Assembly: GCF_900128515.1 (NCBI RefSeq)
Contig: NZ_FQTP01000003.1
Location: forward strand, 1 to 53,416
DNA: 53,416 nucleotides
Source of the DNA: Bathymodiolus heckerae thiotrophic gill symbiont
Lineage (GTDB): Bacteria; Pseudomonadota; Gammaproteobacteria; PS1; Pseudothioglobaceae
Reading direction: 5' to 3'
The position numbers were made by a program, and so were the translations under genes. Under the pieces are notes generated by a model, which was not told where the DNA came from, ran no database searches, and worked only from the letters and a program-made list of their open reading frames with translations. Shown piece by piece: positions 7,281 through 9,332 of this stretch (position 1 is its first letter; each line of letters begins with the position of its first letter).

Positions 7281-7355
7281 ACTTTTTTCTGATGTTTTCA
7301 CATCGCCTTTAAATTTACCTTTTGTTCTTTATTTGGATAAATTTTCAAGTTATGT

Positions 7356-7376
7356 AAATGATACCTATTATCATTT
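7356..7376 (-). promoter_or_regulatory. Fur box upstream of the porin-imelysin-DHOR operon
   Basis: The inverted repeat AAATGATA / TATCATTT is separated by 5 bases. On the minus strand it begins GCAAATGATAATAGG, sharing GCAAATGATAAT with the Fur box at 1591. It is 137 bases upstream of the porin start and just downstream of the small-gene operon. It predicts iron repression of 7219-1633. Confidence 0.8.
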
Positions 7377-7424
7377 GCGTTATCAATTAAATATTATAGT
7401 TTTATGTGAAATATCACTAAAGTC

Positions 7425-7643
7425 TTATATAAGATTTATTTTCTGAAAGTTAGGGAATAGTCGTAAAAGCTCATGATAGTCCAGCAAGCCGTTATACATT
7501 TTGATCTTATTGTGACGCACAAGGTTTTGAATCAGGCGTCTATGAATATTCATAAACTCGCAAATAAAACAAGATGATATTAACTTTCGTTGAACCCCTC
7601 TAACTTCAATATGGGGAATCATCTCATTAATATCAATCTGCAT
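7425..7643 (-). CDS. Small protein with a possible excisionase/MerR-like helix-turn-helix
   Basis: A 72-residue protein of no family I recognise with certainty. The middle (SSCFICEFMNIHRRLIQNL, about residues 23-41) followed by VRHNKIKMYNGLLDYHELL resembles the helix-turn-helix and first wing of excisionase/MerR-type DNA-binding domains. That is inference from pattern only. Its ATG lies 3 bases after the stop of the preceding 54-codon gene, so the two are translationally coupled. It is the last gene of the four-gene small-protein operon. Its stop lies within the palindrome TCTTATATAAGA. Confidence 0.55.
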   Translation of the reverse strand: MQIDINEMIPHIEVRGVQRKLISSCFICEFMNIHRRLIQNLVRHNKIKMYNGLLDYHELLRLFPNFQKINLI

Positions 7644-7646
7644 AAT

Positions 7647-7811
7647 CTAATATCTAAAGATATTGTCAAGCAAGCGAATTTCTTCCATGTCTAATTCATT
7701 TTCCACCAGTAAAGAATCGTTAAATCCACGCAAGAATTGTGCAATACTATTGACCATTGACAGTTCAATTTCTCTAGTCGGTGAGTTTAAATATATTTTG
7801 TCAAATCCCAT
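7647..7811 (-). CDS. Small hypothetical protein (54 aa)
   Basis: The frame begins MGFDKIYLN and ends LLDNIFRY. A good Shine-Dalgarno (AGGAG, 8 bases before the ATG) precedes it. The protein is acidic in its second half (ENELDMEEI) and has no signal peptide, Cys or clear domain. It follows the 51-codon gene after 13 bases and runs into the 72-codon gene after 3 bases. The spacing and ribosome site argue that it is real. No function can be assigned. Confidence 0.6.
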   Translation of the reverse strand: MGFDKIYLNSPTREIELSMVNSIAQFLRGFNDSLLVENELDMEEIRLLDNIFRY

Positions 7812-7824
7812 AAATTTCTCCTAA

Positions 7825-7980
7825 TTACTGTAAATTTTCAATAGATTCTTGCTTAACCTCCTCAAGCAAAATTTGCTTGATCATTTGTTTTGGTAAATTA
7901 AACCGCCTCATTGAATCAAAACTAACTTGGTTATGATGACGCAAGTAACTCAATTTAGTTTGTTGCCAAAAGTTATACAT
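7825..7980 (-). CDS. Small hypothetical basic protein (51 aa)
   Basis: The frame begins MYNFWQQTKLSYLRHHN and ends QESIENLQ. It is basic in the first half and helical with EEVKQE in the second. It starts 5 bases after the stop of the Cys-rich gene and ends 13 bases before the next start. That is the tight packing of a real operon. No signal peptide or known domain is seen. Confidence 0.55.
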   Translation of the reverse strand: MYNFWQQTKLSYLRHHNQVSFDSMRRFNLPKQMIKQILLEEVKQESIENLQ

Positions 7981-7985
7981 CAGCC

Positions 7986-8126
7986 TTACTTTTTAGATTG
8001 CCCGCCACACTCACCGCAACAACCATCACATCCGTCACTCGATGTGTTAATTGCTACTGGTGCTTTGGCTTGTAGTTGTTTCATGATGTGTATGGCCTGT
8101 ATAACGTGCTTTTTTTCGATTGTCAT
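7986..8126 (-). CDS. Small protein with Cys/Gly-rich C-terminal tail (46 aa)
   Basis: The frame begins MTIEKKHVIQ and ends with the tail CDGCCGECGGQSKK, so four Cys fall within eight residues after a helical, Cys-free N-terminal half. A Shine-Dalgarno (GGAG) sits 8-9 bases before this ATG, so I prefer it to an in-frame ATG 19 codons earlier. The layout, a leader-like helix then a Cys/Gly-rich tail, could be a small metal or Fe-S binding protein, or the precursor of a modified peptide. No maturation enzyme is next to it, which argues against the latter. It is the first clear gene behind the 8626 Fur box. Confidence 0.6.
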   Translation of the reverse strand: MTIEKKHVIQAIHIMKQLQAKAPVAINTSSDGCDGCCGECGGQSKK

Positions 8127-8270
8127 GGTTATATCTCCAGTTAAAATAAGTACCCCTTTAGGCAAGAGGACAGCCAGTATCACCAGTCTGCTTTAAAGTT
8201 TGAGAGAGTGAAAACCAGACCGGCAATATGTTCATTTCTCTTTTTAAAAAGTTTGCCCTATAAGGAGAGA

Positions 8271-8282
8271 GTCTTATAAGAC
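8271..8282. repeat. Perfect palindrome GTCTTATAAGAC
   Basis: A 12-base perfect palindrome in the leader. A close relative (TCTTATATAAGA, 7423-7434) lies at the other end of the small-gene operon, at the stop of the 72-codon gene. Each is preceded by AG or GA and could be a dimeric regulator site. Confidence 0.4.
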
Positions 8283-8470
8283 AGCATCAGTATTAAAATT
8301 TGTTATTATCATGAAAAGGAGGCTCCACTCAAATTTCAAATATTAATACCAATGTCTAACCTGTTGTAATAAGTGCTCCAAAGGGGACTAAACTCCGGAG
8401 GCTTTTGTTGAAACTGATCGTTATAATGACTTAAGAAGAGGGATTTACAATCAGTTTCTAACCTTGTGTG

Positions 8471-8560
8471 CTAATTCGAATATTTGCCCAAATATTCAGC
8501 TACTTGATTTTTTGTTAATATTAAATATCCTTTTTCCCTCTGGATTGCTACGCTTATCAT
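8471..8560 (-). CDS. Possible 29-residue leader peptide
   Basis: The frame begins MISVAIQREKGY and ends EYLGKYSN. It is preceded by GAGGGG 8 bases before the ATG and starts 66 bases after the Fur box. The position and ribosome site fit a leader peptide or small protein. Length and composition alone cannot prove it is translated. Confidence 0.3.
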   Translation of the reverse strand: MISVAIQREKGYLILTKNQVAEYLGKYSN

Positions 8561-8625
8561 TTCTTTATTCCCCTCAAATTTATCTACAATTCTTGTAAGC
8601 AACCTTTTCCAAAGTTCTTAGATGC

Positions 8626-8646
8626 AAATGATACTGATTCTCATTT
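8626..8646 (-). promoter_or_regulatory. Fur box upstream of the small-gene operon
   Basis: The inverted repeat AAATGATA CTGAT TCTCATTT has one mismatch per arm pair and is preceded by GC as in the other two Fur boxes. The 15-base core TGATACTGATTCTCA differs from the 7-1-7 consensus in two places. The nearest minus-strand genes are the leader frame and the small-protein operon. bfd on the plus strand is about 470 bases away. Confidence 0.75.
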
Positions 8647-8913
8647 GTAATTGCAAGCTATTTATTCAAATATTATGTTTTATAGGAAATATCAATCAAT
8701 ATTTTTCACTGAATTTATATAAAAAGTGGATAACAACAGTGTTTTAATCTGATTTTAAAAATTTGCTAAATTTTTGAAACTAAGTCAGTTGGGTCTGATT
8801 TTAAGGGCTAAATAGACCTAAAAACCTGATAATTAGTGTCTTTTTGACACTTTAGAGCCGATAAAAGCCATTAATTACAGTCCATTTGTAAAATTTGGTA
8901 AAATTTAGACAAA
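8647..8913. other. AT-rich gap with no recognised gene
   Basis: No convincing frame is seen on either strand. The only structure noted is a hairpin AGTGTC (8835-8840) / GACACT (8846-8851) with a TTTTT loop. The stretch may be decayed sequence next to the bacterioferritin remnant. Confidence 0.5.
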
Positions 8914-8939: not shown

Positions 8940-8976
8940 CTTAATCCCTAACTGAGTTAACAGCTAAATTTAGGTA

Positions 8977-9111
8977 TCACATTTGAGATTGAATGTAGTT
9001 TTGTAAACCTACTTTTTCAATTAAGCCTAATTGCTTTTCTAACCAGTAAGTGTGATCTTCTTCAGTATCTTCAAGCTGGCCACGTAACATTGTACGAGTT
9101 ACATTTAATAA
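8977..9111 (-). pseudogene. bfr: Bacterioferritin C-terminal remnant
   Basis: Minus-strand codons read [18 protein letters not shown], then [18 protein letters not shown] and IQSQM, then stop. This matches the last 40 or so residues of Bfr (E. coli: SRDMMIEILRDEEGH...LIQKMGLQNYLQAQ). A stop at 9112-9114 cuts the frame off, so about 115 N-terminal residues, with the heme Met and most ferroxidase ligands, are missing. The remnant abuts the start of bfd on the other strand. A deletion removed the body of bfr, or a rearrangement joined bfd to its tail. Confidence 0.8.
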
Positions 9112-9113
9112 TC

Positions 9114-9332
9114 ATGTACATTTGCATTTGCAACGCCGTTACCGACAGAGACATTCAAACAGCTATCGACAATGGTGCCTGCTCGATGAATGATTTATCC
9201 AAGCAACTTAAAGTTGGAACTTGTTGTGGCCGATGTAAAGATTGCGCTAAAAAAATGCTTAACCAATCAAATCCACTTCAAATTCAAACCCTAACAATTC
9301 CAAGCTTGGCGCCTGAAATTGCATTTGCATAA
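9114..9332 (+). CDS. bfd: Bacterioferritin-associated ferredoxin
   Basis: A 72-residue [2Fe-2S] protein of the Bfd family. It starts MYICICNAVTD, with Cys4 and Cys6, and has the second pair in GTCCGRCKDC (Cys38 and Cys41). Bfd docks on bacterioferritin and reduces stored ferric iron to release it. I take the ATG at 9114; an earlier in-frame ATG at 9090 would add eight residues before the canonical N-terminus. Little Shine-Dalgarno is visible. Because its upstream side is the bfr remnant, its original promoter may have been lost, and its partner Bfr is not intact here. Confidence 0.9.
   Translation: MYICICNAVTDRDIQTAIDNGACSMNDLSKQLKVGTCCGRCKDCAKKMLNQSNPLQIQTLTIPSLAPEIAFA

Follow-up and report, generated by a model that had tools for sequence, protein, structure and literature searches.

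A Fur-linked cassette of small genes and a structured leader RNA in Thioglobaceae: a candidate riboregulatory low-iron module

The window, a stretch of 53,416 nucleotides (contig C3) from a 1.92 Mb Thioglobaceae-type genome, contains a minus-strand cassette that we tentatively read as a riboregulatory low-iron module under Fur repression. A small protein, p51, would be the partner of a structured RNA in a lineage where Hfq was not detected. We give this reading a probability of about 0.45. From sequence, we infer the Fur sites, the operon order, the coding nature of p25, p51 and p54, and the structure of the related RNA in genus g3 with its covariation; action of the RNA in trans, binding of p51 to it and gating by p46 are suggested by analogy only. 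In the following, g1 denotes the window genome's own genus, g2 the clam symbionts (Candidatus Ruthia), g3 the Thioglobaceae genus with the best-preserved RNA and g4 the Bathymodiolus thiotrophic symbionts.

The preliminary description of this DNA had listed four frames of 46, 51, 54 and 72 codons behind a long leader and a Fur box. All four are present on the minus strand at the positions given below, and the leader upstream of p46 is indeed long, extending from the transcription start side at ~8620 to 8127. A sigma-70-type promoter can be read in the sequence at 8628..8656 of the minus strand (-35 TTGCAA at 8656-8651, a 17-nt spacer and -10 TATCAT at 8633-8628), and the same TTGCAA..TATCAT arrangement is found ahead of homologous loci in other genomes. 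Its spacer and -10 are overlapped by Fur box 1 (8625..8648, minus strand), which has one mismatch to GCAAATGANAATNNNTATCATTTG and is conserved in related loci. With 0.06 matches expected, the whole window contains just one further Fur-type site, Fur box 2 (7355..7378, minus strand), which stands in front of the porin/imelysin genes and marks the end of the module; a Fur box is also found at this place in L030, L033 and L054. The neighbourhood of the cassette includes two imelysins, di-haem oxidoreductase/peroxidase genes and a porin-like gene. A truncated bacterioferritin C-terminus (8976-9118, minus strand) is abutted head-on by the gene for Bfd, the bacterioferritin-associated ferredoxin (9117-9332, plus strand), and L030 and L035 have a longer bacterioferritin frame located upstream of their cassettes.

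Conservation was determined through a DNA search of 83 genomes of the family, followed by translated searches of homologous loci and by profile searches. The genes p46, p51 and p54 occur in identical order in G012, G024, G035, G086, G092 and G093, with p46 broken in G012 and p54 interrupted by a stop close to its end in G092. The trio is decayed or partly broken in G085, where p51 and p54 contain stops and p46 is shortened, and four further g2 genomes contain short remnants of p54. Trio order, spacing and Fur box are common to the Ruthia-type clam symbionts, the Bathymodiolus symbionts and the window genome, and the full kept order is p25-RNA-p46-p51-p54. Most of these loci adjoin a porin and an imelysin gene; G092 has the porin and lacks the imelysin. 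The other 11 genomes of g1 yielded no p51, which makes the window genome an exception within its genus. No convincing relative of p51 or p54 was identified in 369 genomes of the class, and a search of 398 genomes of the phylum returned the window genome only. Weak p51 matches outside the family look like chance. We discarded a viral origin: viral contigs contained no relatives of p51, and the six DNA-pattern matches in them do not match the RNA model.

The gene p51 (7825-7980, minus strand, 51 codons) encodes a basic three-helix protein. Profile searches detected its family, with strong E-values, in 19 genomes of Thioglobaceae. Its dN/dS is ~0.07-0.17 in g4 pairs. The AlphaFold2 model consists of three helices (pLDDT 88.5), and comparison with solved structures gave no fold match and no known RNA-binding fold. 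The computed charge is +8.5 and +9.5 in two g3 members and lower where p54 is present, at about +1 to +4; the window p51 is mildly basic (+1.7). The adjacent p54 (7647-7811, minus strand, 54 codons) is an acidic helical protein, present in the trio genomes or as remnants, with a dN/dS of ~0.1-0.25 in g4 pairs and a helical AlphaFold2 model of low confidence (pLDDT 58). Neither protein had a counterpart in Pfam, NCBIfam, PHROGs or solved structures, or by fold; the NCBIfam scan of the window p51 was empty, and the Pfam scan of all p51 members up to E 10 gave no match to the Fbp family of Fur-regulated basic proteins. An assignment of p51 to DUF1127 (CcaF1/YjiS), suggested by eye, was rejected at an hhalign probability of 0.2%. 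True DUF1127 proteins that are unrelated to p51 are encoded elsewhere in two g4 genomes, G035 and G024 (L199, L200). We also rejected the idea that p51 and p54 are halves of one gene, as the two are mutually unrelated.

Ahead of the trio lies p25 (8471..8560, minus strand), an ORF of 29 codons with the Shine-Dalgarno sequence GAGGGG and the product MISVAIQREKGYLILTKNQVAEYLGKYSN. It is conserved as a peptide of 25-29 residues in eight loci, with a dN/dS of ~0.05-0.3 in close pairs, and across the loci compared its start, which has a ribosome site, lies 66-68 nt past the Fur box (once 53). Within g4, substitutions in p25, p51 and p54 fall at third codon positions, with dN far lower than dS. The gene p46 (7986-8126, minus strand, 46 codons, start ATG at 8126) ends in ...DGCDGCCGECGGQSKK, with the tail CDGCCGEC, which bears out the CxxCCxxC-like cluster noted previously. 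Homologous small ORFs with three to five C-terminal cysteines are found in g2 and g4 genomes, and p46 probably is truly coding, given a dN/dS of ~0.1-0.2 within g4. It evolves faster than p25, p51 and p54, yet the three to five terminal cysteines are retained. The start of p51 lies 2-5 nt beyond the p46 stop and in most loci has no Shine-Dalgarno sequence of its own, while the start of p54 overlaps p51 or follows it closely. This spacing represents a layout for translational coupling, and from that layout p46 might be a translational gate for p51.

The fourth frame of the preliminary description, p72 (7425-7643, minus strand, 72 codons), is an orphan whose membership in the module is unsupported. 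It had been suggested to encode a small DNA-binding protein; its resemblance to HTH_17/excisionase helix-turn-helix proteins is weak (E 0.1-0.2), it is not conserved, and a candidate relative in L004 was rejected as a chance match. No relatives beyond chance matches were found in 57 related genomes; phages gave one match at E 0.4 and plasmids none. The proposal of an undescribed Fur-linked small-protein system thus survives for p46, p51 and p54, which keep their order and Fur boxes, match no family, are under purifying selection and were found together in several genera, and it fails for p72. Because of the kept order, the purifying selection and the unrelatedness of p51 and p54, the frames are not pieces of one decayed gene. 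Two parts come in addition to these genes, namely p25 and a structured leader RNA, and no part of the module was matched in Rfam, Pfam, NCBIfam, PHROGs or solved structures.

The structured leader RNA of the window (8127..8470, minus strand) is predicted to form hairpins with the C/U-rich runs CCCUCUUC, CCUCCUUUUC, CUCUCUCC, CUCUCUC and UCCUCUU. Over its 344 nt, the minimum free energy is -97.5 against -72.4 for shuffled sequences (z -5.25); including p25 brings z to -2.07. The leader contains six C-rich pyrimidine runs against 2.9 in shuffles, and two of the six are clearly unpaired, which 5 of 100 shuffles reach. A weak terminator-like hairpin with a putative function can be read at 8246..8283 of the minus strand (TGTCTTATAAG-ACTCTCTC-CTTATAGGGCA followed by AACTTTTT). 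Compared with Rfam, the leader did not match any known riboswitch or sRNA, including RyhB, PrrF and NrrF. The leaders of g2 and g4 show similar predicted hairpins; taken singly, they have no significant excess of C-rich runs.

The RNA is clearest in g3, where the module consists of RNA and p51: p54 is missing, and no p46 was seen in the interval from the Fur box to p51. Ten g3 genomes have a Fur box, then an RNA of ~250 nt that carries a strong intrinsic terminator, and then p51. The loops CUUCCUC, CCCUCC, CUUCCUUU and CUUCCUCCUU are predicted to be unpaired, and in each of six RNAs tested none of 100 shuffles left four such anti-Shine-Dalgarno-like C-rich loops unpaired. Words of this anti-Shine-Dalgarno type number 10-14 per g3 RNA against 2-4 in shuffles. 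In a combined alignment of the g3 RNA and its relatives, both partners had changed in 11 of 32 pairs; shuffles gave 4.0 such pairs, and sliding gave no more than 4. The observed count is somewhat inflated because the alignment was fitted to the structure. The covariance model R1 recovers the ten g3 loci with E-values from 1e-35 to 1e-42; it does not detect the g2 and g4 leaders. Its best match in 120 kb is the window leader, at the expected place (8248-8415, 14.5 bits, E 0.32), and it aligns the hairpin at 8246..8283 to the g3 terminator. A second model, R2, built with relatives from G064 and G077, ranks the window leader second (E 0.47). By E-value this homology is weak; we consider it likely, and that the two are the same RNA is proposed by analogy only.

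An AhpC-like peroxiredoxin gene directly follows p51 in several g3 genomes (L044, L045, L048, L049, L051-L053), which suggests that the module is connected with defence against peroxide. In L031 and L033, copies of the element GAGACCTTTGCATAAAT lie within the cassette or next to it; they are probably miniature insertion sequences.

Weaker R1 relatives were found in G064 and G077, where they are not located beside p51, show no evident Fur box and have their own terminators; R2 adds G079. These relatives lie at other loci (L104, L105, L107, L108, L195 and L197). The three that were read in sequence, L104, L105 and L107, combine sigma-70-like boxes with C/U-rich loops and show no evident Fur box. 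The R1 match L106 in G065 was discarded, as it lies inside a coding region. There may thus be a small family of g3-like RNAs in Thioglobaceae.

Fur-regulated iron-sparing sRNAs of the FsrA, IsrR or RyhB kind are expected to have a Fur box at the promoter, which is present here, to form a discrete structured RNA with a terminator, which was found in ten g3 genomes, and to expose single-stranded C-rich seed regions, which was likewise seen in g3. Hfq in the same genome, as expected for RyhB and PrrF, was not found: the Hfq profile (PF17209) was detected in none of the 24 Thioglobaceae searched (G000-G023), against 12 of 15 gammaproteobacteria outside the family and 5 of 14 controls. When targets of the g3 RNA were predicted across the whole genome of G023, proteins with Fe/heme motifs were not enriched, the motif proxy being underpowered; AprA-, IlvD- and NuoG-like genes, named by eye, were among the top 12 by energy and not significant. 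Pairing to Shine-Dalgarno sequences is too unspecific for such a test.

In the riboregulatory reading, low iron would release Fur from the promoter and a single transcript would begin. In the manner of FsrA and IsrR, the C/U-rich loops of its structured part would pair with the ribosome-binding sites of genes whose products use iron, with p51 as a dedicated RNA partner (chaperone or maturation factor) and the acidic p54 as its accessory or antagonist. Translation of p46 would govern p51, which begins next to the p46 stop and usually has no ribosome site of its own. For the function, a chaperone, sensor or peptide had been suggested; the reduction of the module to RNA and p51 in g3 moves the more probable function away from a peptide or chaperone and towards riboregulation. 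A more far-reaching form is unlikely: a self-contained Hfq-free riboregulator that combines a Fur-controlled multi-loop anti-Shine-Dalgarno RNA, itself a member of a broader RNA family within Thioglobaceae, with a dedicated RNA-binding protein of a new family, its dose gated by a metal- or cysteine-sensing leader peptide.

The main rival is that the leader is only a cis-acting attenuator that tunes read-through into p46-p51-p54, so that the proteins and not the RNA would work under low iron. We regard this as somewhat unlikely. Wherever the module occurs, the RNA lies in cis ahead of p51, an intrinsic terminator immediately precedes p51 in g3, and the window leader contains its terminator-like hairpin; in g2, g4 and the window, the RNA lies inside an mRNA and so could act in cis only. 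However, four repeated anti-Shine-Dalgarno loops would be superfluous in an attenuator, and the RNA relatives without p51, which carry their own promoter-like boxes and terminators, favour a stand-alone RNA.

The other two rivals centre on p46. It could be a mature cysteine-rich metal binder (an iron or copper chelator, chaperone or modified peptide) that p51 and p54 handle or modify, as might be suspected from cysteine clusters that are retained while the remainder drifts and from the porin and imelysin neighbours in the window, g2 and most g4 loci. We consider this improbable, since g3 keeps RNA and p51 without these partners, no modification enzyme lies beside the window cassette, and p51 and p54 match no RiPP family. 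Cysteine is needed for Fe-S clusters, and p46 could instead be a cysteine-responsive attenuator ORF, on whose terminal cysteine codons ribosomes would slow under cysteine scarcity and so alter access to the p51 start. The position of these codons near the p46 end, just ahead of the p51 start, is compatible with this, and polycysteine short ORFs are attenuators in mycobacteria according to a title cited within PMC9094748 (Canestrari 2020). To this possibility we give little credence, as selection in g4 also acts on the N-terminal half of p46, and the tail often has just three or four cysteines that are not consecutive.

Among known systems, FsrA of Bacillus subtilis cooperates with FbpA, FbpB and FbpC rather than with Hfq (PMC7430163). 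The likeness to FsrA/Fbp consists of Fur control, a C-rich motif suited to Shine-Dalgarno sequences and small proteins that are also under Fur. Conversely, p51 has no sequence similarity to Fbp in Pfam scans, RNA and protein here share one locus and promoter, p25, p46 and p54 are extra, and the targets are putative. In Staphylococcus, single-stranded C-rich regions of IsrR act on Shine-Dalgarno sequences (PMC9410917). The module resembles IsrR and RyhB/PrrF/NrrF in its Fur box and sRNA-like RNA, but its RNA has no Rfam match, and RyhB and PrrF need Hfq, which was not found here. We know of no protein partner gene in the same transcription unit for any of these RNAs. CcaF1 (DUF1127) and CcsR1-4 of Rhodobacter likewise combine a small protein gene with adjacent sRNAs on which the protein acts, and the CcsR RNAs also bear C-rich motifs; there, however, the RNA lies in the 3' UTR, whereas here it lies 5' of the protein gene, and p51 is not a DUF1127 protein. 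Both CruR/CutF (DUF2946), known for nascent-chain metal sensing (PMC9426467, PMC9973294), and the polycysteine attenuator ORFs are similar in that a short cysteine-containing ORF controls a downstream gene by translation. The window p46 has no Pfam match and no RAPP-type motif, and so is not DUF2946. Metal sensing as in CruR/CutF fits poorly because the cysteine cluster is at the extreme C-terminus, still within the ribosome at termination.

Thioglobaceae, which include SUP05-type bacteria and the symbionts of mussels and clams, are abundant sulphur oxidisers whose metabolism is based on iron-sulphur and haem enzymes. We found no description of an iron-responsive sRNA of Thioglobaceae in the literature. 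The Fur-linked arrangement, kept by selection, appears to be a low-iron response that these bacteria have built for themselves. If the riboregulatory reading is true, the module would suggest how a lineage in which Hfq was not found manages its post-transcriptional iron economy, as an independent counterpart of FsrA/Fbp, and the question of which proteins replace Hfq would become testable with one small gene, p51.
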